A program made the translations under genes and the position numbers. Below are positions 6,259-18,557 of a DNA stretch of 26,989 bases, one piece after another. Below the pieces are notes generated by a model. That model was given only the letters and a program-made list of their open reading frames with translations, was not told the origin of the DNA and searched no databases. Numbering within the stretch: the stretch's first letter is position 1; each line of letters starts with the position of its first letter. The DNA is from a virus: positions 1 through 26,989 of IMG/VR virus record IMGVR_UViG_3300034105_000107. One strand, given 5' to 3'.

Positions 6259-6593
6259 TAACCCTCTACCACGTAATACTTAAATTGATAATCTTGTGAC
6301 AGAAGTCCTGTAAAATGCTCTTCAAGAGCTACAATATTTCCATCACCATCATATATAGCATCCGCCAGAGCCTGTTCCCATTCGTCAGGCTCATATCTCA
6401 AATCATAATCAAGAGTAATGTTAAATTCTGTAAGAGTGAGAGTTGTTCCAGTCTCATTACCTACAATTGTCATACCAGCTTGAAAATTTCCATATATATC
6501 ATAGATTACAATTAGTCCGGTATCTGGATAGTAGTTCTTAACTCTTGCTTGGTTATTACCTGAATACACAAGCTCGTTCAGCTGCCATGTCAT
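6258..6593 (-). CDS. Small hypothetical virion protein
   Basis: A 111-aa acidic, Tyr-rich protein starting MTWQLNELVYSGNNQARV and ending YQFKYYVVEG. The first 60 residues look like a small beta-barrel (VIYDIYGNFQAGMTIVGNETG). It is not recognised. Its start overlaps the PAAR gene's stop (ATGA) and its stop overlaps the next start, so it is made together with the spike tip and the beta-helix protein. A baseplate or fibre-base role is a contextual guess. Confidence 0.65.
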   Translation of the reverse strand: MTWQLNELVYSGNNQARVKNYYPDTGLIVIYDIYGNFQAGMTIVGNETGTTLTLTEFNITLDYDLRYEPDEWEQALADAIYDGDGNIVALEEHFTGLLSQDYQFKYYVVEG

Positions 6594-6913
6594 TTACCAC
6601 CACCAGCTCTACCACCATAAACAACAACATCCATAGAGTGTCCTTTTGGATTAGTAGGACCGGTAGGATGTATAACAACGCAATCTTGTTTATCAGGAGC
6701 TGCAATGTCACCCATCGCACAAATCACAAGTTTACCTTGAATGTAAACATTCTTAGCGCCGTACACAGCTTGCAATTGACCTCCATCGCAGTGTGTATCA
6801 TAATCACCTTCAACTGCCCACAATATACCATTCACTTTGACAGTGCTTTGTCCTGTAACGATTGTTGTAGCCTCACAAAATCTCTTATCGCCGTGACGAT
6901 GGGCTCCTGGCAT
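6590..6913 (-). CDS. PAAR-like spike tip protein (T4 gp5.4-like)
   Basis: A 107-aa protein with the small size and Gly/His/Cys-rich make-up of PAAR spike tips. It opens with MPGAHRHGDKR, carries TVKVNGILWAVEGDYDTHC and GKLVICAMGDIAAPDK, and has a final His at HSMDVVVYGG. Candidate metal ligands are His5, His7, the His/Cys at 41-42 and a late His. In T4 the equivalent gp5.4 caps the gp5 needle and pierces the outer membrane. Its place at the head of the structural run, just after dUTPase, fits a late baseplate gene. Assignment is by motif style and context; no single invariant motif decides it. Confidence 0.72.
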   Translation of the reverse strand: MPGAHRHGDKRFCEATTIVTGQSTVKVNGILWAVEGDYDTHCDGGQLQAVYGAKNVYIQGKLVICAMGDIAAPDKQDCVVIHPTGPTNPKGHSMDVVVYGGRAGGGK

Positions 6914-6920
6914 TTTATTC

Positions 6921-7511
6921 CTATGCTACTTTCTTTGGTCTTCCTCTGCCGCGCTTTAGAGGCTGTTCAACTGGCACTGGCTTCTGTACATCTTCAATTG
7001 CGAAGACGCTAATACCTGTTGAACCTAATCCTCCGGCACGATCTGTTTTTTGAATTGGAGCATCGAAGATTTCCCAAAGAATATATTCCTCTGATTTAAT
7101 CATTTCCGCTTGTGCAATCCTATCTCCATTATTTATCGTCTGATCTACACTGGAATTATTTGCAAGCAAAACAAAAGTTTCTTGGACATAATCCGAATCG
7201 ATTACGGCTTCTAGGTTTGCTAAAACAAGACCTTGCTTAAGTGATAGCCCAGACCTAGGATGAATTCGTACCGAATATCCTTCTGGAATATCAAAGATCA
7301 ATCCAGTAGGCACTAGAATACGATCACCAGGCATGATCTTAATTGAGCCATTAGAAAGTTGCCTCGTTAATGGCGCATTGTACATATTGTATCCAGTATA
7401 CTCAGTCTTGCCCGTAGATTGAAACGATAGATCGAAACAAGCTGCTTGTTTTGTTGCAAACTTAGGAAGATTGACGTTGGGATCTGTCTTAAAAATTCTC
7501 AAACGATTCAT
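6921..7511 (-). CDS. dut: dUTP diphosphatase with AT-hook-like C-terminal tail
   Basis: Trimeric-type dUTPase, hydrolysing dUTP to dUMP and pyrophosphate to keep uracil out of DNA and feed dTMP synthesis. All five motifs are visible: 1, ACFDL (24-28; Cys where Gly/Ala is usual); 2, PRSGLSLK (85-92); 3, AVIDSDYVQE (102-111); 4, NGDRIAQAEM (128-137); 5, DRAGGLGSTG (157-166), the mobile arm that closes the site. At 196 aa it is longer than the usual ~150; the extra is an insert near 30-58 and a 30-residue tail ending KRGRGRPKKVA, an AT-hook-like basic sequence. ATG with GGAG 9 nt upstream (ATGGAGCTATATAATG). It sits between regA and the virion genes. Confidence 0.95.
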   Translation of the reverse strand: MNRLRIFKTDPNVNLPKFATKQAACFDLSFQSTGKTEYTGYNMYNAPLTRQLSNGSIKIMPGDRILVPTGLIFDIPEGYSVRIHPRSGLSLKQGLVLANLEAVIDSDYVQETFVLLANNSSVDQTINNGDRIAQAEMIKSEEYILWEIFDAPIQKTDRAGGLGSTGISVFAIEDVQKPVPVEQPLKRGRGRPKKVA

Positions 7512-7525
7512 TATATAGCTCCATG

Positions 7526-7924
7526 TTAAGTTTTACGTTTGCCAATATTGTATTTTGTTACCAGATTCCATTCCGTCTTTTCACGGTGTGATATGATTTT
7601 GATTTGTGAAAGGGGAGCGACAGGAGTCTGGCTTTTAGCAGGATCAACAAGAATAGCCAATCTCCATTCTGATAGGAGATTGGCTATTGTATTCACACGA
7701 CCACGATCCTCATCTGAGAAATCGGAACTCTTATTGTCCAATAAGAATAGTTGTTTGAAGTGGATAATATAGTACTTGCCCTGCTTATGCAGAATGTGGC
7801 AAGATTGATATAAAGTCTTTTCTTTTTTAGATGCAACACCAATACGAGAAAGTGTTTCCTTAACTTTTAGGAAGTCATCAGGCTCAGCCAGTCTCACCTC
7901 TATTAAATCTTCTAAGTTTAGCAT
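7526..7924 (-). CDS. regA: RegA translational repressor of early mRNAs
   Basis: Orthologue of T4 RegA, an RNA-binding protein that blocks ribosome access to early phage messages, including those of the clamp and clamp loader. The core EPDDFLKVKETLSRIG then EKTLYQSCHILHKQGKYY is very close to T4 RegA. A GTG at 7933 is in frame, but the ATG at 7924 has an AGGTGG Shine-Dalgarno 6 nt upstream, so I use 7924 (132 aa; T4 has 122). The N-terminus extends about 7 residues beyond the T4 start. The first 41 nt lie inside the end of gene 62, as part of the conserved 44-62-regA order, so its synthesis is probably coupled to gp62. Confidence 0.93.
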   Translation of the reverse strand: MLNLEDLIEVRLAEPDDFLKVKETLSRIGVASKKEKTLYQSCHILHKQGKYYIIHFKQLFLLDNKSSDFSDEDRGRVNTIANLLSEWRLAILVDPAKSQTPVAPLSQIKIISHREKTEWNLVTKYNIGKRKT

Positions 7925-8303
7925 TAGGACCACCTTTGTTCAAAGTCTTTTTAATTTCTTCAAGTTGGTCATTTGTAAGCACTGTTAGAACGTCCTTTGC
8001 CTTTTCATTGGAATAATTGTAAGCTTCCTTAATGACTTCAAGATTGTCATCATCTTGTCTTTTTTGCCATTTCTGAAAAGGTCTTTTATATGACCTTACA
8101 GTATTTAGCAAATAGTGGTACTGAAGAAGTCCATCTGTGGATGGTAACATATTCATCTGATTGGCCTGCATTACCATGTCCAGATGAAACGAGATGGATC
8201 TGTTAACCACATAGGGCACATATTCCTTCTCGTTTTCACTGGTAATGACTTTCTTTTTGGTATGCTGGATGCTAGGGATAACGTCTTTAAAAAGATCCGT
8301 CAT
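7884..8303 (-). CDS. 62: Clamp loader small subunit (gp62)
   Basis: A 139-aa protein starting MTDLFKDVIPSIQHTKKKV, directly after gene 44 with an ATGA overlap and before regA, the exact position of T4 gene 62. In T4, gp62 is the single non-ATPase subunit that joins four gp44 subunits to load the gp45 clamp. The sequence is shorter than T4's 187 aa, as in cyanophage-type relatives; it has no P-loop and a Lys/Asp-rich helical C-terminus (LTNDQLEEIKKTLNKGG). Assignment relies on synteny and the LFKD start more than on strong identity. Confidence 0.85.
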   Translation of the reverse strand: MTDLFKDVIPSIQHTKKKVITSENEKEYVPYVVNRSISFHLDMVMQANQMNMLPSTDGLLQYHYLLNTVRSYKRPFQKWQKRQDDDNLEVIKEAYNYSNEKAKDVLTVLTNDQLEEIKKTLNKGGPNAKLRRFNRGETG

Positions 8304-9238
8304 TGATATTCACAATCTACCATAAGTTCTGTCAAACAAGCAACAAGATTGATTTCTTGGTCTGCAACAAATGCTGATTGATACCCATATTTGGCAATGA
8401 TCAAAACAGCTTGTGGTACGCTTTCGGGCTTGAAATATTCCACAAGAGAGTCATAAATCTTGCGATACACACGGGCAGGTTCAATGTCAGAATTGGTAAC
8501 ACACCACTTTCTCATTTCTGAAAAGTTCTTGTCTTTCAGAAATTTGACAAGATCGGCAATCTTTCGAACATCTGAGAGTTGTGCAACGATGCCTGCATCC
8601 AAAGTGCCAGAAGAACTAAACCGCTGTAGCTCATTAAGAGTACGACGATAGTCAGGAAAGTACTTCTCGACAATCTTTGCCACAACCGCTTTATCATAAT
8701 CGATTCCTTCTGAAGTCAGAATGTTAAGCAAACGCTTAAACAACTGAGATGCCATCTCTTGCTTTTCATCATTCTTCAATCCGAAATCGATTACCGAACA
8801 ACGTGAATGAATCGCGTCGATCAGCTTTGACTTGAAGTTACATGTAAGAATGAATGTGCAATTGCCTGCAAACTCTTCGATTGCACCACGCATAGCTGCT
8901 TGGGCTTCAGGAGTTAGATAGTCGGCTTCGTCTAGGATGATAACTTTCTTGCCACCCGTCAACGATACCGAAGATGCATAGTTACGAATAGTTGTTCGCA
9001 GCATATCAATACCTCTGTTTTCAGAAGCATTGATATACAGATGGTTGATCCCAATCTCATCACACATGGCTTTGGCAACTGTGGTCTTACCCACACCGGC
9101 AGTACCAGTTAACATGAGATTGGGAATTTCTTTCTTATCCACATACTCCTGAAACGGCTTTTTCAGCCGCTCAGGAAGGATGCAGTCTCTTACGGTCTTT
9201 GGTCTATACTTTTCGACCCAGAGAAAAGATTCGCTCAT
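8300..9238 (-). CDS. 44: Clamp loader ATPase subunit (gp44)
   Basis: AAA+ ATPase of the sliding-clamp loader, related to RFC small subunits. Numbered from the ATG at 9238: Walker A GTAGVGKTT (45-53), Walker B ILDEAD (101-106), sensor 1 LTCN (131-134) and the SRC arginine-finger motif (145-147). The 312 aa match T4 gp44 (319). An in-frame TTG lies one codon upstream, but GAAGGA is 7 nt before the ATG and the TGATG junction with the preceding nuclease gene makes ATG the better start. Together with gp62 it opens gp45 and places it on primer-template DNA for the replicative polymerase, which is not in this window. Confidence 0.96.
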   Translation of the reverse strand: MSESFLWVEKYRPKTVRDCILPERLKKPFQEYVDKKEIPNLMLTGTAGVGKTTVAKAMCDEIGINHLYINASENRGIDMLRTTIRNYASSVSLTGGKKVIILDEADYLTPEAQAAMRGAIEEFAGNCTFILTCNFKSKLIDAIHSRCSVIDFGLKNDEKQEMASQLFKRLLNILTSEGIDYDKAVVAKIVEKYFPDYRRTLNELQRFSSSGTLDAGIVAQLSDVRKIADLVKFLKDKNFSEMRKWCVTNSDIEPARVYRKIYDSLVEYFKPESVPQAVLIIAKYGYQSAFVADQEINLVACLTELMVDCEYQ

Positions 9239-9741
9239 CAATAAGTCCTTCTAACGTTGTAGCGAGATTTTAGCAGAATAGCACACGTTTCGTCAAGTGT
9301 CATAAAGTCTATTCTAAGATTTTTCATTCTAGGCATCATTCTTATAGGCATAAATTTAGCGTAGATATGTTTAGGAATAACACCATCAAATCTAGCTTTG
9401 GTTGCTGCCGGATGTTTCTCGTCATCTCTTGATACATCATGAAGTTCTTTCATGAATCTATATACACGTTGACGTATCGAATACTCTGTAGCGCCCACAT
9501 ACAGACACGAGGTTTGTGTCTTGGTCTTTTCATAGAGAACGTATAGACCACCACCATTCACACCTGGAATGTCAGCTTTTCGAAAAAAGGTGCCTTCGCT
9601 ATGAAGTGACATACCTAAACCTTCGTTTGGTAATTCATATGAAATCACTTTATAGAAAGGCAACCCTATTCCGATAGTGACGATCTTTCTGGCATAGTCC
9701 CAGTTGTCCACATAAGTGTCACCATAAAGATCGACGGCCAT
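9238..9741 (-). CDS. GIY-YIG family nuclease inserted between clamp and clamp loader genes
   Basis: A 167-aa protein with the GIY-YIG nuclease hallmarks: GGLYVLY (64-70) as the GIY strand, CLYVGAT (79-85) as the YIG strand, the helix SIRQRVYRF with Arg90, and LDETCAILLKSRYN (149-162) supplying the metal-binding Glu151 and the final Asn. The N-terminal 60 residues have no known domain. It may be a free-standing homing endonuclease, or a phage nuclease acting on host or recombination DNA. It has no separate promoter and shares a TGATG junction with gene 44, so it is fully integrated in the replication operon. T4 has no gene in this slot. Confidence 0.75.
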   Translation of the reverse strand: MAVDLYGDTYVDNWDYARKIVTIGIGLPFYKVISYELPNEGLGMSLHSEGTFFRKADIPGVNGGGLYVLYEKTKTQTSCLYVGATEYSIRQRVYRFMKELHDVSRDDEKHPAATKARFDGVIPKHIYAKFMPIRMMPRMKNLRIDFMTLDETCAILLKSRYNVRRTY

Positions 9742-9742
9742 T

Positions 9743-10030
9743 TTACTTCATAACTCCGTCATACATTTCTTCGAAGTTACGATTTTCGTCCTGCTCTTGA
9801 GCGTAGTTGCTCTTAAAGTAGACACGTGCCATACGACGAAGCATCTTCTTATCAATGCCAAGCTGATCTTCCATTCGCGCGAGAGTGTCCTTCTGCAAAT
9901 CCCTTTCAGCAGCAATTCGCGTCATACTGTCGTTCATTTCAAGAACAGCATCCTTAACGCGCTTCTTGTCCGCTTCAGAAAGACCGTTGATCGAAACGAA
10001 TACTTTTTGATTGTGTCCCATGCCAGCCAT
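9743..10030 (-). CDS. dsbA: DsbA-like double-stranded DNA-binding protein
   Basis: A 95-aa, mostly helical protein. Its second half, ARMEDQLGIDKKMLRRMARVYFKS then NFEEMYDGVMK, parallels the C-terminus of T4 DsbA (DELGVDGKMFNRL... then VVELYDTVF). T4 DsbA binds DNA and assists late transcription from gp55 promoters. Start ATG at 10030 overlaps the gp45 stop. Proximity to gp45, which activates late transcription as a mobile clamp, is consistent. Identification is from a short recalled motif and length, so it is moderate. Confidence 0.65.
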   Translation of the reverse strand: MAGMGHNQKVFVSINGLSEADKKRVKDAVLEMNDSMTRIAAERDLQKDTLARMEDQLGIDKKMLRRMARVYFKSNYAQEQDENRNFEEMYDGVMK

Positions 10031-10683
10031 TACTTAGTCTCCACTGCAATCCAATACTTGATCTTCTTGTTCTTCGCCGCAAACTTCGCGAAGCCGTTCA
10101 ACATAACTTCAACGTCATAATCATCCGCAATCATTTTGAGATTTTCAAACTTGAACGTAACAGAACAATCTTCACCTGTATGATCGGCAAGCTTGATAGA
10201 TGCAGAGTTAGAAGTGTCGTTTGCCTTCTCATGCGCGAGAAGACGAAGTTCACCATTCTTACCAACAATAGAAATGTTAGGAAATCCGTTTGTTGCAGCA
10301 AGACGACGGATACGCTGCCAAACAGAATCGGTCAGAGTGAAGCGAAGATCAACCTGCTTCATCGTCAGTTCCTTATCGGGAGGGGAAGTGATGAGACCAA
10401 TCGCACTTGAGTAATAGTGCAGACCGACAGTACCATCAGTCATGGTTAGAGACTTGTCACCAAAATCGATATCAGGATTATCGAAAGAGGTTACGTTTCC
10501 AAGAAACTGTGGCAAATCATAGATGCCAAACTGAATAGGAATGTTGTCTTCAAGTTCAGCTTCACATAGAATAGACTTGTCCATGTTGATGGTCTTCTGA
10601 ACATTACCTGTTCGAAGAACGAGTCCAGAATTGATTTCTGAAAAGTTCTTGAGGACCTTTAGAGTGTTTTCGCTAATCTTCAT
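10030..10683 (-). CDS. 45: DNA polymerase sliding clamp (gp45)
   Basis: Trimeric processivity clamp of the phage replisome and, in T4, the activator of late transcription together with gp55 and gp33. The N-terminus MKISENTLKVLKNFSEINSGLVLRTG closely parallels T4 gp45 (KDTTALLKNFATINSGIMLKSG), and length (217 aa; T4 228) agrees. Other shared features are IYDLPQFLG and an EDCSVTFKFENLKM stretch. The 15 residues missing relative to T4 are spread through the middle and C-terminus. ATG with GGAG 11 nt upstream. It heads the 45-(dsbA-like)-(GIY-YIG)-44-62-regA replication run and follows dNMP kinase. Confidence 0.93.
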   Translation of the reverse strand: MKISENTLKVLKNFSEINSGLVLRTGNVQKTINMDKSILCEAELEDNIPIQFGIYDLPQFLGNVTSFDNPDIDFGDKSLTMTDGTVGLHYYSSAIGLITSPPDKELTMKQVDLRFTLTDSVWQRIRRLAATNGFPNISIVGKNGELRLLAHEKANDTSNSASIKLADHTGEDCSVTFKFENLKMIADDYDVEVMLNGFAKFAAKNKKIKYWIAVETK

Positions 10684-12645: not shown

Positions 12646-13869
12646 TTACATGGAAATTTCGCCATCATTAGTAGCGGCAGCTTCCGTCTTGACTTCCGGC
12701 TTCGGCTGGAGAGTTTCGTCCAGCTTCATGTAGAGGTCAAAGAAGCCATTCTTGGTATCCACATCAAAGCGGTTCAGACAAAGCTTGATTGCCTTCTCAC
12801 GATCCTGACCGAAGATTGAGAACGCTTCGCAGATGTGGACAAGACGGCGAGTAGAGATGATATCAGACACGGCACCATCGTAGAATGCCTTGCGGATCAT
12901 ATCAGCCCAATTGACTAGCTTTTCTGCAAAGTCATTGTCATCACAACCGGAAGCCTGCAGAATATTCTTCACGATCTTGAGTTCGGTCTTGAGCGGCGGG
13001 TATTCCTGCTCGAAAGTGATAGAGAAACGCTCAAGGAAAGCTTCGTTCATCACGTTGGTACCGATGAAGCGACCGTCGTCAGAACCCTTACCCTTGGTAT
13101 TGGCAGTAGCCAGAATGTTGAAGCCCTTAGCAGGCGTTACCACACGATTGATCTTCTTAAGATAGATCGGCTTGCCTTCAAGAATGGGCTGAAGGCACAT
13201 GAGCTTGGCATCACCGAGATCCACTTCGTCCAGAAGCAGGATGGCACCACGTTCCATAGCCACGATAACCGGACCATTCTGCCAGACAGTCTTACCATCG
13301 ATAAGACGGAAACCACCAATCAGGTCATCTTCGTCCGTTTCTTTGGTGATGTTGGCACGAACCAGTTCACGCTTTTCTTGGGCGCAAATCTGCTCAATCA
13401 TCATGGTCTTACCGTTACCAGACAGACCGGTCACATAAGTCGGATAGAACTTACCAGACTTGATGATCATGCGGACATCGGCAAAGTGGCCGAAAGGAAC
13501 ATAACCAGAAGCCTTAGCGGGAACCAGTGACACAGTATCAGCGACACTGGTGTGCAGAGCAGCAATTGCCATGTCATGCTGATTTGACACTTCGATGGCA
13601 GTGTTAGAAGCAACCGGAACTTCCGAAGCAATATCGGAAGCCTTAATTGCCTTAGCTGCCTTCACGGGCTTAGTGGAACCACTGTCATCAAGGGAATACA
13701 CTCCGCGCGAGACATGTCGCGCCTTGTCCTTGATGAACCAAACCGGATAATCAATTCCGTACTTACGTTCAATGAGGATAACTTCCTGACGGGTGATGGT
13801 CGCGATATCACCGAATTCCTTCTTAACAGCGTTAAAGAAGGCAGACTTGTCGAGAGGGCGCTTAGCCAT
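12646..13869 (-). CDS. MoxR/CobS-like AAA+ ATPase
   Basis: A 407-aa AAA+ ATPase of the MoxR/CobS/CbbQ group. Walker A is GLSGNGKT (148-155), Walker B ILLLDEVD (210-217), sensor 1 ATANT (254-258), and NEAFLERF (275-282) carries the arginine-finger region. Residues 1-55 form a small domain and 60-120 an Ala/Lys-rich linker. T4-like phages often carry such a gene, annotated as the cobalt chelatase subunit CobS. No cobalamin genes are present here, and the neighbour at 13931-16165 encodes a VWA protein, the usual partner of MoxR-type ATPases, so a protein-remodelling pair is more likely than vitamin B12 synthesis. It has its own consensus promoter (13906-13934) and AAGGAAG as RBS. Confidence 0.9.
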   Translation of the reverse strand: MAKRPLDKSAFFNAVKKEFGDIATITRQEVILIERKYGIDYPVWFIKDKARHVSRGVYSLDDSGSTKPVKAAKAIKASDIASEVPVASNTAIEVSNQHDMAIAALHTSVADTVSLVPAKASGYVPFGHFADVRMIIKSGKFYPTYVTGLSGNGKTMMIEQICAQEKRELVRANITKETDEDDLIGGFRLIDGKTVWQNGPVIVAMERGAILLLDEVDLGDAKLMCLQPILEGKPIYLKKINRVVTPAKGFNILATANTKGKGSDDGRFIGTNVMNEAFLERFSITFEQEYPPLKTELKIVKNILQASGCDDNDFAEKLVNWADMIRKAFYDGAVSDIISTRRLVHICEAFSIFGQDREKAIKLCLNRFDVDTKNGFFDLYMKLDETLQPKPEVKTEAAATNDGEISM

Positions 13870-13905
13870 TTAGAACTTCCTTGTGTGTGTTTCGATTATG
13901 TGTAT

Positions 13906-13934
13906 ATTATAGACTAGGTAAAGGTGTTTGTCAA
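13906..13934 (-). promoter_or_regulatory. Perfect-consensus sigma70 promoter for the AAA+ ATPase gene
   Basis: Minus strand: TTGACA (13934-13929), a 17-nt spacer, TATAAT (13911-13906). Both hexamers match consensus exactly. The -35 box overlaps the TGA stop of the upstream VWA gene (13933-13931). Expected start is near 13899, giving a leader of about 30 nt with AAGGAAG before the ATG at 13869. Confidence 0.92.
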
Positions 13935-16165
13935 GCGGCAATTCGCTTGACAAACCGTGAGAGTAGAACACGGGAAACCGTCTTCTTTTCGGAAAACTTG
14001 ATGAATTCCTTTGCAGCCTTGTTACGGGTCATGTTGGAATCTACAACCAGTTCCTTGTTAGTGGAAACATTGAACATCTTAGGGTTGAGAATATAGTATT
14101 CATCATAACCTGCAGTGTCAACTGGAAAAAATCCATCATTTGTCCAAGACTTCTTGGCATCAGTCAGGCGCTTGTCATAAACGCCAAACTTATATTGATC
14201 CCAAACACGCTGGAATCCATCACCGTTGATAAAGAAGCCAATAAGATTACAGTTGGTACGATCCTTCAGAACCTTAAGAAGCAGAGAAGTCATGCGACGG
14301 TCGCCAAGGCTGTACCGAATGTCGTAAGATTTCTTGGTAAGATCATCCTGAAGAATGTACTTGGTCTTACCAGACCAACCATAACCGTACTGATTTTTTC
14401 CATGGAAACCATAGATAGGATCGGATTCGCCATCAGTCAGGAAGATGGTATTGACAACCTGAACTTTAGACTGATTATGGAACTTATTTACAACCAGATC
14501 TGCCAGAGCAATACACTCATTGAGTGGAGTGGACGACATTCCATCACAGGGCATATGACCACCACAACCCATGAGCCAAAGATGGTACATTGCATCATTG
14601 AGTTCCTGGATCTTCATTCGAGATGAAAGAATGTTACGGATCATGACAGGATCCATAGAAATTTCATCTTGATTTTGAGAGAAGAACTGGGTATCCGGAA
14701 GAAGAGTGCCTCCATCATCCTTGTAATCAGTGTACAGAACACTACGGAACGAATAAACCTCAAAAGGAATCTGTACCCGCTTGCAAAACATTGCCAGTGA
14801 GAAAAGCTGCTTTAGCGTTTTCTTCAGGTTGGATTGCATTGAACCAGACCAATCAACAAACATAACGAAGCCGTGATTTTTGCCAGTCGCAACGGAAGTG
14901 ACACGACGGAAAAGGTCATCATTATACTTGTAGGTATGCAGCTTATTCATATCGATTACACCGGTCTTCGAAACGCTGGTGCGACTATATTCATCCGCAG
15001 ACTTTCGCATTTCAAATTCTTTAACCATGAAAGAAATCGTGGCATTTTCATCTGCACGGAACTTCATGAGTTCCGCACGAACCGAATCTTGCCAAAACTT
15101 GTCTTGCCACATCTTAGGAAGATAAGACCGCTGTTCAGCTAGAACCTGCTTGTAGTCAACAACCATCTTGTTGATATCGACAGGACGAGGAAGCTTCAGG
15201 TAAATATACCGTTCGTCCGAATTCTTAATCAGATCATCCTGCGTCTTTTGCCAAGACTTTTCAGTTTCCGATTCCGGCAGGTTGTTATCATCACCGCTGC
15301 CGTTCTGAGAACCCATGTTTATAGGAGTATCAGAATATTCGTTTGAGCGGTCATCAGACTGGGTCTTACCAGACTTATTACCATCTTCATCATCATCCGA
15401 TGCTTCACCATCGGCATTACCGTTGCCGTCAGTTTCATCCGTTTCCGAATCATCATAGGTCATGTCATCAGAGTCCGAATCATCCGATTCCGACCATTTG
15501 CCGTCATCTTCACCGGCTTCTTCGCCCATGTCATCCGGATTGTTTTCTTGATCCTGTTCCTGCTGATCCTTAGACCAAGTGAAAATCTTTTCAGTGAGTT
15601 TCAAAACCTCATCAAAGGTTTCAGCATTCTCAACCTCAAGAAGCATTTTCTTCTCAACAGGAGAAAACTTGATGCCCATCATAGAGCCGCCCTTGCAATA
15701 GATGTTAAGGCGATCAATAAAGGACATTTGATTAACGTCCCGCTTTTCGGTACCGAAGAAATCACGTTCAATGAGTTCCTTATAACCCTTCACGTAATTC
15801 CGACGGGCACCAGGGAAGCGGCGCTTCTGGCGCTTATCAATACGGGCATCCTCAATAACGTTTAGAAAGCCCTTGACGGCACCCATCGCGCGATTAGAAG
15901 CAGAACCCGTAACACGGAGAGCAATATCCTTGATTGCATCAGCCCAACCTTCGGGAGGAGTATCAAGAGCATGGCCGACTTCATGTACAACCAGAAGGTC
16001 ATATAGGTCATCGGAAATATTGTGCCATATCGGCAGACACAGGACACGGTTCTTTACGTCGAACCATGCGGTCTTTGCACCAGGCTTATGCTGTACGGCA
16101 ATGTTTTCAGTGGCCAAAAGCTTAGCCAGCTGAGACTTTCCGTTCTGAATATTTGCTTGTTCCAT
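13931..16165 (-). CDS. CobT-like protein: HExxH metallopeptidase-like domain plus VWA domain
   Basis: A 744-aa protein. The N-terminal domain has VVHEVGHALDTP with HEVGH at 61-65 and a NVIEDARID helix at 102-110, which together look like a zinc-metallopeptidase site (HExxH with a downstream Glu). Residues about 200-310 are a long Asp/Glu/Ser/Asn-rich linker of low complexity. The C-terminal part is a VWA domain with the MIDAS sequence DWSGSM (438-443), a Thr/Ser further on, and FLTDGESD as the fourth metal-binding loop. This layout is like CobT of cobaltochelatase and other VWA partners of MoxR ATPases. It precedes the AAA+ gene, so the two probably work together. The substrate is unknown. 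Own promoter at 16189-16218; AGAGGAC RBS. Confidence 0.87.
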   Translation of the reverse strand: MEQANIQNGKSQLAKLLATENIAVQHKPGAKTAWFDVKNRVLCLPIWHNISDDLYDLLVVHEVGHALDTPPEGWADAIKDIALRVTGSASNRAMGAVKGFLNVIEDARIDKRQKRRFPGARRNYVKGYKELIERDFFGTEKRDVNQMSFIDRLNIYCKGGSMMGIKFSPVEKKMLLEVENAETFDEVLKLTEKIFTWSKDQQEQDQENNPDDMGEEAGEDDGKWSESDDSDSDDMTYDDSETDETDGNGNADGEASDDDEDGNKSGKTQSDDRSNEYSDTPINMGSQNGSGDDNNLPESETEKSWQKTQDDLIKNSDERYIYLKLPRPVDINKMVVDYKQVLAEQRSYLPKMWQDKFWQDSVRAELMKFRADENATISFMVKEFEMRKSADEYSRTSVSKTGVIDMNKLHTYKYNDDLFRRVTSVATGKNHGFVMFVDWSGSMQSNLKKTLKQLFSLAMFCKRVQIPFEVYSFRSVLYTDYKDDGGTLLPDTQFFSQNQDEISMDPVMIRNILSSRMKIQELNDAMYHLWLMGCGGHMPCDGMSSTPLNECIALADLVVNKFHNQSKVQVVNTIFLTDGESDPIYGFHGKNQYGYGWSGKTKYILQDDLTKKSYDIRYSLGDRRMTSLLLKVLKDRTNCNLIGFFINGDGFQRVWDQYKFGVYDKRLTDAKKSWTNDGFFPVDTAGYDEYYILNPKMFNVSTNKELVVDSNMTRNKAAKEFIKFSEKKTVSRVLLSRFVKRIAA

Positions 16166-16588: not shown

Positions 16589-17500
16589 CTATAAACCATT
16601 GTAATTGTTGATCAATTTTAGTCCATAGTTGTTAACTTTTGGCAGTTTTGAAAGATCAACTCCTGGTTTTAATCTCAGCTTATTTTCCTTAAACTTTGAA
16701 TAGTCCACATAATGATGCCAACGACCATACTTCCAAACCATTTGAGCAACATCTGGATGCATATCAACTAGCATCTGAGACTTATTCACAGTACCAGTTG
16801 CATTCAATTGGCCATCACGCCATTTGCTCTTGTCTAGCTCACCTTCAGCATGGTAGAATTCAGAAGTGTTTCCACCCTTAACAGTTTGCGTTGCGGCTTT
16901 ACCCTGCATCCATATATTGAACTGAATCGTGCAATCACCATCTTTAAGAACATTGAGGCAGATATCAGTATCTTCGTTATAACGTCCACGCCATCTATGT
17001 TTACAATCATTGGAAATGAGTAGACAAGAATAGATACGTGTGTTTATCACAAAAGGTGGATACTTCTGATTGGGTGCAATAAAGAACCGATACTGAAAAC
17101 CTGAGATAGGAACATTCTCAAAACGATCAACAAAATCTTCGGCAGCTTTGAAACATACTCCAGAACCTACTCGAATTCTTTCGTTCTTATGAAGTCGATA
17201 GAAATCTGAAATGTTATCGTCTAATACCCAATGCTTCTCAGCTCCTATTGAAATAGCATGATCCCAACACCAATTACGAGCCCGACCAGGGCCGTCACCG
17301 TGGTTGCTGAAAGGGGCAACAAGCAGAGTAACATAATCCCTAATATTGAAATTATCAAGGGCAGCTTCATAAGAACTTTCATCTTGTGGCTCTATCGCTA
17401 TGTAATGTGGAACTTTCATACGCGCGAGTGAACGCGAAGTAAACATGCTTTCATGTCTACCTTTAGATATGATATAAACAGGATTTTTAGGGTTAGTCAT
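16589..17500 (-). CDS. TET-associated-type glycosyltransferase (TAGT/GREB1-like)
   Basis: A 303-aa protein. Its order of motifs matches what I know of the phage TAGT family: PVYIISKGR near the start, GPGRARNWCWDHAI (70-83), the LDDN motif in HWVLDDNISDFYRLHKN (90-106), GFQYRFFI with YPPFVINTRIYSC in the middle, and YNEDTDICLNVLKDG (174-188) with VKGGNTSEFY (207-216). LDDN and NEDTD are likely metal/sugar-nucleotide and catalytic residues. Family members are proposed to glycosylate oxidised or hydroxymethylated bases in phage DNA; that role here is inferred. No TET/JBP or hydroxymethylase gene is in this window. Its start overlaps the preceding gene by 8 nt. Confidence 0.8.
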   Translation of the reverse strand: MTNPKNPVYIISKGRHESMFTSRSLARMKVPHYIAIEPQDESSYEAALDNFNIRDYVTLLVAPFSNHGDGPGRARNWCWDHAISIGAEKHWVLDDNISDFYRLHKNERIRVGSGVCFKAAEDFVDRFENVPISGFQYRFFIAPNQKYPPFVINTRIYSCLLISNDCKHRWRGRYNEDTDICLNVLKDGDCTIQFNIWMQGKAATQTVKGGNTSEFYHAEGELDKSKWRDGQLNATGTVNKSQMLVDMHPDVAQMVWKYGRWHHYVDYSKFKENKLRLKPGVDLSKLPKVNNYGLKLINNYNGL

Positions 17501-18557
17501 TTTTGAAATTCTTCTCCACTAGCATTATCTTATCTTGTACATACTCCAACAATTCCAAACGCCTTGATTCAGTAGGAATGTCAGTTGTTACAAGAGGAGA
17601 TAAATCAACATCAAATGAATTTTGAATGTCTACCAAATTACAAGCAGGGTTGATTAGTGGTAGACAGTCGTAGTTAATAGCTTCAATAAAGCGATAGATT
17701 GAAAAACAGTGTCTATCATAAGAAGGAAGCATATATGTGAAACGAGACTCTTCAATCTTGTTCAGATATGCATCTGGATCGATCAGTGTATTTTGACCAT
17801 TTCTGTAATCTTTGATATAGAAGTTTACAGTTTCAAACTTAGCTTCGATATCTTCAATATCACCTATAAACTCCTCACGATTGCTTTTCTCAAGAATTGT
17901 TAATCCAAATGTAAAGTCTGTAATCTTGTCTCTTGTGATCATAGGCACCGGCTTCGTCAATAGATAAGCCTGCAGACTATCCAATCGATTAATACCATAA
18001 GCTGGAATATCATAACCATGATACAGATAGTAGTCTGTGGTTGGCTTTACATCTTCATGAAACAGACCGCAACTGATTTCGTTTGGATCAATAGCAATTT
18101 CATGCAGAGGTATGTTGTATGTATTATGAGCTTTAAGCATTGCAAGAATGTTAGTGCAGTGAGCGCCTACACTCTGAAACTTGATCTGACCACCGTCATT
18201 AGGAAATACACCAGATCTTTTACCTACACGGGTAAGTTCAGAACGCCATAGGTCCATACCTCCAACAATGAACAGCTTGTCATATTGTTGAAGTGGAGTC
18301 ACATCTATTGCATCATAAACGTCCATCCATGATGACATCAAAGGAACTAAGGTTTCATAATAATGTCCATAATGATTATAATAGTTGTCCACTTCAACAT
18401 TGCCATAGCGAGATAATGCTATCTTAGCACCATCTGTTTTTGTTGTGCTGAGAATATCAACTTCATCGCATGTTTGAGATATGATATTCATATGACGGAT
18501 GACTATCTTGCCCTCACGACCACTAATAGGTCTAGCTGAATAAATCAGACCTCTCAT
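17493..18557 (-). CDS. Possible GT-B glycosyltransferase, next to the TAGT-like enzyme
   Basis: A 354-aa protein. The N-terminal half has a Rossmann-like pattern with EVDILSTTKTDGAK and QQYDKLFIVGGMDLW, resembling the region of T4 beta-glucosyltransferase that reads YDRLIVVNSSINFF. The C-terminal half has RFTYMLPSYDRHCFSIYRFIEAI then DCLPLINP, reminiscent of the GT-B segment in which the sugar donor is held and a glutamate contacts the ribose. Overall identity looks weak and the fold is a proposal. It is translated with the TAGT-like gene (8-nt overlap) and with the 119-aa gene (ATGA), so the three probably serve one process, perhaps sequential sugar addition to DNA. Confidence 0.55.
   Translation of the reverse strand: MRGLIYSARPISGREGKIVIRHMNIISQTCDEVDILSTTKTDGAKIALSRYGNVEVDNYYNHYGHYYETLVPLMSSWMDVYDAIDVTPLQQYDKLFIVGGMDLWRSELTRVGKRSGVFPNDGGQIKFQSVGAHCTNILAMLKAHNTYNIPLHEIAIDPNEISCGLFHEDVKPTTDYYLYHGYDIPAYGINRLDSLQAYLLTKPVPMITRDKITDFTFGLTILEKSNREEFIGDIEDIEAKFETVNFYIKDYRNGQNTLIDPDAYLNKIEESRFTYMLPSYDRHCFSIYRFIEAINYDCLPLINPACNLVDIQNSFDVDLSPLVTTDIPTESRRLELLEYVQDKIMLVEKNFKND

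Follow-up and report, generated by a model that had tools for sequence, protein, structure and literature searches.

Introduction

Trimeric dUTPases (PF00692), among them those of E. coli (1dud/1rnj), phage T5 (8qky) and Brucella (3mbq), have a fold and five motifs in common with the phage protein described here. The nearest precedent that we found for this protein is the betaretroviral nucleocapsid-dUTPase, in which a dUTPase is joined to a nucleic-acid-binding part; the MPMV protein retains nucleic acid binding as well as dUTP hydrolysis, according to excerpts of PMC4531489. On the same excerpts, the betaretroviral type comprises a whole N-terminal nucleocapsid protein encoded in two reading frames, whereas the phage protein carries an 11-residue C-terminal peptide, belongs to a DNA phage and starts directly at the dUTPase core, i.e. 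it has no N-terminal nucleocapsid part. A C-terminal extension is also present in the system of PMC5794464, for which the excerpted text of that paper states neither an AT-hook nor DNA binding.

The terminal peptide of the phage enzyme resembles an AT-hook. As given in excerpts of the respective papers, AT-hooks are defined by an (R)GRP core (PMC7279267, PMC10011098) that binds the minor groove of DNA (PMC7279267, PMC11354804), AT-hook peptides of 5, 7 and 11 residues have low DNA affinity (PMC11354804), and an AT-hook protein occurs in a filamentous prophage (PMC10011098). In HMGA-type AT-hooks (PF02178) a basic-flanked RGRP core lies in a disordered stretch, as in the phage tail, which differs in being a single predicted hook per chain, in residing on an enzyme and in scoring below the Pfam cut-off. 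The first hook of HMGA1 reads KRGRGRPRK. Among the papers listed in searches of the open-access literature there was none on an AT-hook dUTPase, an absence that is weak evidence.

Results

A trimeric-type dUTPase with a flexible C-terminal arm

The window, that is the whole 26,989-base virus record analysed, encodes a dUTPase, as is evident from profile, motifs, solved homologues and fold. The features of the gene are as follows:

6921..7511, minus strand: dUTPase gene, trimeric type, 196 aa (ORF and translation, Pfam PF00692, PHROG 135, solved dUTPases)
7428..7439, minus strand: motif 1 region, CFDL, residues 25-28 (motif reading)
7245..7259, minus strand: motif 2, PRSGL, residues 85-89 (motif reading and alignment A1)
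7188..7205, minus strand: motif 3, VIDSDY, residues 103-108 (motif reading and alignment A1)
7110..7127, minus strand: motif 4, GDRIAQ, residues 129-134 (motif reading and alignment A1)
7014..7040, minus strand: motif 5, RAGGLGSTG, residues 158-166, mobile arm (motif reading and alignment A1)
6957..7013, minus strand: disordered variable linker, residues 167-185 (pLDDT, linker lengths, linker replacement)
6930..6956, minus strand: AT-hook-like motif KRGRGRPKK, residues 186-194 (sequence, Pfam, homologue comparison)
6921..6929, minus strand: terminal Val-Ala and stop (sequence)

The protein matches PF00692 with 60.7 bits (cut-off 22) and phrog_135 with an E value of 1.1e-40, and a PDB search returned 54 distinct homologous sequences at E<=0.001. 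All five motifs are present. In an alignment of 37 rows (A1), PF00692 matches 37/37 rows at E<=1 (best 1.5e-20), and C25, F26 and D27 of the motif 1 region are invariant. An AlphaFold2 monomer computed from this alignment has a pLDDT of at least 90 at 111 of the 196 residues, and each of the 50 PDB matches listed for the model is a dUTPase. Since the model is a monomer, the homotrimer is predicted from the family; the enzyme is most likely an active trimer with three AT-hook-like tails.

The pLDDT falls below 50 over most of residues 166-190. The best-matching segments of the 54 solved homologues lie within query residues 50-169 and leave the hook uncovered, and the last 23 residues alone gave no match in the PDB. 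The preliminary description had noted about 30 extra residues after motif 5; there are exactly 30, and they end in KRGRGRPKKVA, whose 11 codons plus stop codon occupy precisely 6921-6956 on the minus strand. The GRP-centred AT-hook core that it had claimed was likewise recovered, in that residues 186-194 (KRGRGRPKK) hold a basic-flanked (R)GRP core. The Pfam AT_hook profile (PF02178) matches residues 186-195 with 11.8 bits, which is below the curated cut-off of 17.4, and we therefore speak of an AT-hook-like motif. Even at E<=1, this profile matches no more than 19/37 rows of A1, although GRP[KR] is present in 24/37 as read by eye.

The hook marks a phage lineage and is patchy at its borders

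For a wider comparison, 114 distinct dUTPases were tabulated, including the window protein and three from named phages and leaving aside rows found only by hook-pattern scans, genome-collection rows and Seuratvirus rows. In the first scan (80 loci), the very end of the tail was already its conserved part. At a core identity of at least 70% to the window protein, 25/25 sequences carry the hook (window included), as compared to 11/21 at 60-70%, 16/25 at 55-60%, a share raised by one feeding scan that began from a hook-bearing relative and favours hook bearers, and 0/43 below 55%; another six sequences at 55-60% have a basic tail without GRP[KR]. The preliminary description had made its reading depend on whether homologues keep the tail. 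All close relatives do so; conservation is patchy at 55-70%, where 13 of 46 relatives have no tail, and ceases outside the window's lineage. The 43 sequences below 55% identity bear out its statement that a dUTPase normally stops at the mobile arm, and in a genome collection the hook followed motif 5 in 0/79 bacterial or archaeal dUTPases, a sample read from 80 loci that is limited by two peptide patterns and in which some loci are probably phage.

The 23-row clade containing the window protein has KRGRGRP[KR]K in 23/23 members, and in the enclosing clade of 38 rows GRP[KR] is found in 34/38 and the full form in 32/38. More divergent tails retain GRP and basic residues (KRRSGRPKK, KKRPGRPK, KKAGRPKR, KPGRPKK), and in six relatives the tail is Lys/Pro-rich but has no GRP[KR] core, so that simple basic charge may suffice there. 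On a core-only tree, which has weak support at 37/108 inner branches and joins some long branches to each other, the distribution of tailed and tail-less proteins needs at least six changes; the tail was therefore gained or lost several times.

Lys/Pro-rich dUTPase tails (e.g. KLPPKLPPKAPPKVPTKK) were seen in loci L059-L063, L374-L376 and L426-L429, with ends reading GRPKR, GRPKK, GRTKK or forms without GR. In the hook-less group, L408 and L410 share an acidic C-terminal peptide, PMEEWxVDGPTEFPK, which is perhaps a protein-docking motif. A further observation concerns motif 5 (7014-7040 in the window). Phe is usual at one position of this motif in dUTPases and is thought to stack on uracil. 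The window protein has Leu there; Leu or Met occupies the position in 69/114 sequences, and Phe is found in 38/56 sequences without such a tail. A plain count appeared to tie the tail to Leu/Met (51/58 tailed versus 18/56 others); this link was dropped, as starred branches only gave two independent pairs (sign test p 1).

Named phages were inspected as well. A tail common to Seuratvirus dUTPases was suspected at first, in that a tblastn alignment reached query residues 186-196, but the three dUTPases read there end in unrelated tails and the idea of convergence was dropped. A short-linker query, in which the hook is query residues 57-67, matched 71 records, which is part of the 1406 records matched by the earlier tblastn; among the alignments listed, for 60 of the 71, none covers a hook beyond motif 5. 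In record H63 the alignment extended to query residue 62, yet this lies past the end of its dUTPase gene; the dUTPases of H63 and H67 stop at or just past motif 5. Variovorax phage V45v66 (L097) and Acidovorax phage ACP17 (L516) do carry a basic dUTPase extension, with GRP in V45v66 and PGPKPG in ACP17. In both, however, the extension is N-terminal (KKKAGRPSNAEKAARAA... and RRKPGPKPGAKAAREAA..., respectively) and the enzyme ends at motif 5 with no C-terminal hook. In ACP17 regA lies directly upstream of dut; in V45v66, whose genome is unannotated, an upstream ORF is RegA-like, by eye only. Metagenomes contain dUTPases that are unlike the eight that were read from named phages (three Seuratviruses, X1, phiM12, V45v66, KsaM-C1 and ACP17).

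The terminal peptide is conserved next to a freely changing linker

The linker that separates the hook from motif 5 varies in length from 5 to 40 residues (41 sequences). Two pairs of loci, L345/L347 and L026/L027, have cores that are 99.4% identical, replaced linkers and nearly the same last 11 residues. In a third pair, L426/L427, with 98.2% identical cores, linker and end both differ, and neither protein has a hook. Among 41 proteins, which had been chosen for the motif, pN was 0.055 in the hook as compared to values of 0.218 and 0.477 in core and linker, respectively, pS in the hook was 0.56, the hook DNA occurred as 26 different 27-mers, and 0/158 nine-codon core windows were as conserved as the hook. 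Because this set was motif-chosen, the comparison was repeated on all rows of the 23-row clade using simply the last 11 codons. Their pN was 0.042, versus 0.130 in the core and 0.391 in the linker. In this case, 7/156 core windows of 11 codons were as conserved or more so, and synonymous variation was also low (pS 0.288 versus 0.627 in the core), so that constraint on the RNA or an exchange of gene ends plays a part as well.

One source of such constraint may be the following gene. In 19/23 rows of the clade, though not in the window, the start of the next gene overlaps the dUTPase stop, and AAGG lies within the Lys-Val codons of 19/23 rows (counted by eye from the listing), which could be the ribosome site of that gene. 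Together with the low pS, this means that the last few codons are probably under RNA-level constraint too. The GRGRP codons lie upstream of the putative ribosome site; they have four spellings within the clade and 14 in 18 more distant hook rows (19 of the 29 other hook rows were examined, one of them without GRGRP). By computation, then, the terminal peptide is under selection at the protein level; the enzyme core and the disordered, variable linker are likewise computed results.

Twelve related contigs, which were hand-chosen, measure 24,560 to 167,363 bases (933,118 in all) and are not all independent, as L024/L051 and L001/L009 share the same dUTPase, were also scanned with a degenerate DNA pattern that encodes RGRP and two further, mostly basic residues. 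This pattern occurred once in ten contigs and was absent from two. Nine of the ten matches are the dUTPase tail and the tenth reads SGRPRN elsewhere, while a reversed control pattern gave four matches over the 12 contigs. Two of the three contigs without a dUTPase-tail match bear other GRP tails (L033, L063). The hook thus appears in the dUTPase tail more than chance would give.

The same hook on other phage proteins

A scan of IMG/VR for KRGRGRP[KR]K returned at least 200 loci, in 59 of which the motif lies no more than 15 residues from the C-terminus. Each of the two hook-pattern scans returned at least 120 stretches, and the shares among the 200 analysed loci are not abundances; the DNA patterns also admit codons for Ser, which is the residue encoded in at least two of these loci. 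Clustering was based on similarity outside the hook. Besides 12 dUTPases, the 200 loci yielded a cluster of 38 proteins of mixed, often great length, two clusters of ten and smaller ones, the largest cluster (L187/L219) comprising 56 similar proteins with the hook mostly near the N-terminus. The representative of one cluster of ten (L108) matches the small terminase (phrog_74 / PF05944), a packaging protein with an unrelated core and the same C-terminal KRGRGRPKK as the window dUTPase; that of the other (L102) matches DUF6433 (phrog_461), of unknown function. Pfam AT_hook scores for the C-terminal KRGRGRPKK of the L102, L108 and L148 proteins are 12.9, 13 and 15.2 bits, respectively. Phage proteins thus bear the hook as a portable tag, and at least one of the groups concerned handles DNA.

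Two of these groups deserve separate mention. The L187/L219 protein is small (~130 aa) and frequent and has KRGRGRPRK near its N-terminus; the one member scanned had no PHROG match and an AT_hook score of 21.7 bits, and by eye the protein resembles a small terminase. The KRGRGRP-type hooks at the ends of the L102 cluster proteins, whose representative is a DUF6433 protein, hint that the role of these proteins is linked to DNA.

Gene neighbourhood

The dUTPase gene lies beside T4-type replication genes, which are upstream of it and on the same strand; the PAAR-like gene downstream of it closes the list:

10030..10683, minus strand: sliding clamp, gp45-like (PHROG 223, E 2.4e-64)
8300..9241, minus strand: clamp loader, gp44-like (Pfam/PHROG search)
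7884..8303, minus strand: clamp loader, gp62-like (Pfam/PHROG search)
7526..7933, minus strand: regA translational repressor, upstream neighbour of dut (Pfam PF01818, 136.9 bits)
6590..6913, minus strand: PAAR-like gene, start 7 bases past the dUTPase stop (PHROG 281, E 1.6e-07)

Downstream come the PAAR-like gene (Pfam PAAR 25 bits, below the cut-off of 27), an ORF without match and a gene that matches tail fibres weakly, in the place taken by DNA polymerase in Sinorhizobium phage phiM12. This phage has the order gp45, gp44, gp62, regA, dut and DNA polymerase, with small genes between, and its dUTPase is tail-less despite the same neighbourhood. With the window RegA as sole query and uncorrected for relatedness, regA was found directly upstream in 30/54 tailed and 20/54 other loci, a difference that relatedness alone could explain. 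The PAAR-like gene is downstream in 28/57 tailed loci and not in the other 29.

Elsewhere in the window, positions 16589-17500 encode a homologue of beta-glucosyl-HMC-alpha-glucosyltransferase (phrog_842, E 6.2e-44), which suggests sugar-modified cytosines in the phage DNA. Adjacent genes at 12646-16165 match phrog_249 (porphyrin biosynthesis) and phrog_459 (peptidase), which in a T4-like phage we take to be CobS-like and CobT-like, respectively. Two ORFs within the gene run, 9238-9741 (167 aa) and 17493-18557 (354 aa), have no PHROG match.

Discussion

A dUTPase probably held loosely on phage DNA

The preservation of the motif while the remaining tail changes points to tethering of the enzyme to DNA, and we lean towards a model in which the hooked trimer is held loosely on phage DNA, keeping dUTP hydrolysis near replication. 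That is, this phage lineage would have equipped an ordinary trimeric dUTPase with a flexible C-terminal arm that has an AT-hook-like peptide at its end, so that each trimer would offer three hooks just past the mobile arms, by which the active sites are closed. The hooks would bind weakly, each in the minor groove of a short A/T stretch, and the three together would hold the enzyme loosely on the phage DNA. Weak DNA binding by short AT-hook peptides implies a loose or multivalent grip, and we propose that three hooks per trimer may offset the low affinity of a single one. In this way, dUTP hydrolysis and the supply of dUMP for dTMP synthesis would be kept close to replicating DNA, thereby lowering uracil incorporation there. 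DNA binding, the three hooks and the tethering are what we infer.

Tethering at replication sites is plausible because dut adjoins the gp45-, gp44- and gp62-like and regA genes. Gripping the minor groove would also be fitting in a phage with a possibly sugar-modified major groove, given the glucosyl-HMC glucosyltransferase homologue in the window; sugars on the cytosines would fill the major groove, whereas the minor one would stay accessible. The preliminary description had proposed that a DNA- or RNA-binding tail tethers dUTP hydrolysis at replication sites or confers a regulatory role. Our data make its binding and tethering interpretation more likely, though not proven, and contain nothing in favour of a regulatory (Stl-type) role of the window dUTPase. 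A stronger variant, in our view unlikely, is that the dUTPase doubles as a DNA-bridging protein that organises or marks replicating genomes. In that event the three hooks would crosslink the phage DNA, which may be sugar-modified, at its AT-rich minor grooves. With the hook attached to the mobile arm, binding to DNA and closure of the active site would be coupled, the dUTPase working best on DNA.

Other explanations of the tail

The basic end could instead be a docking or RNA-binding peptide that recognises an acidic partner, e.g. a phage single-strand binding protein through its acidic tail, or phage RNA rather than DNA. The six relatives whose Lys/Pro-rich tails lack the GRP[KR] core would fit such a role, as would the adjacent gene for the translational repressor RegA and the ability of AT-hooks to bind RNA too (stated in the excerpt of PMC11354804). 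What is kept, however, is not charge alone but R-G-R-P with basic flanks, i.e. the minor-groove core, and GRP[KR] persists in 34 of the 38 clade members, so that we regard docking or RNA binding as rather unlikely.

We give still less credence to the notion that the 3' end of the gene is kept mainly at the nucleic-acid level, be it because the next gene has its ribosome site and overlapping start there or because recombination homogenises gene ends. Within the 23-row clade, the start/stop overlap and the AAGG, about where a ribosome site is expected, would each account for constraint in 19 rows, the low pS and the mere four spellings of GRGRP agree with it, and the swapped linkers show that exchange takes place. 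Yet GRGRP lies upstream of the putative ribosome site and takes 14 spellings in the 18 other hook rows, the downstream genes vary, as the PAAR-like gene illustrates (28 of 57 tailed loci), and in the window the next start is 7 bases beyond the stop. Finally, the scattering of the same peptide over many phage proteins and the six or more changes on the tree might indicate that a hook module moves between phage genes and left this tail behind, neutral or of little use; this seems improbable in view of the strong protein-level conservation next to a freely changing linker.

Taken together, the hook-tailed dUTPase is a real, selected variant that we did not find described in the open-access literature searched, and loose tethering of the enzyme to phage DNA is the reading of its tail that we favour. 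In T4 biology it is an old question whether the enzymes that clean up or produce nucleotides act locally at the replication fork or throughout the cell ('dNTP synthetase complex'). Tailed and tail-less dUTPases of one lineage, along with near-identical cores bearing swapped linkers, would offer a clean test of this question with small proteins. In addition, a motif familiar mainly from nuclear proteins is seen here to serve phages as a portable tag.
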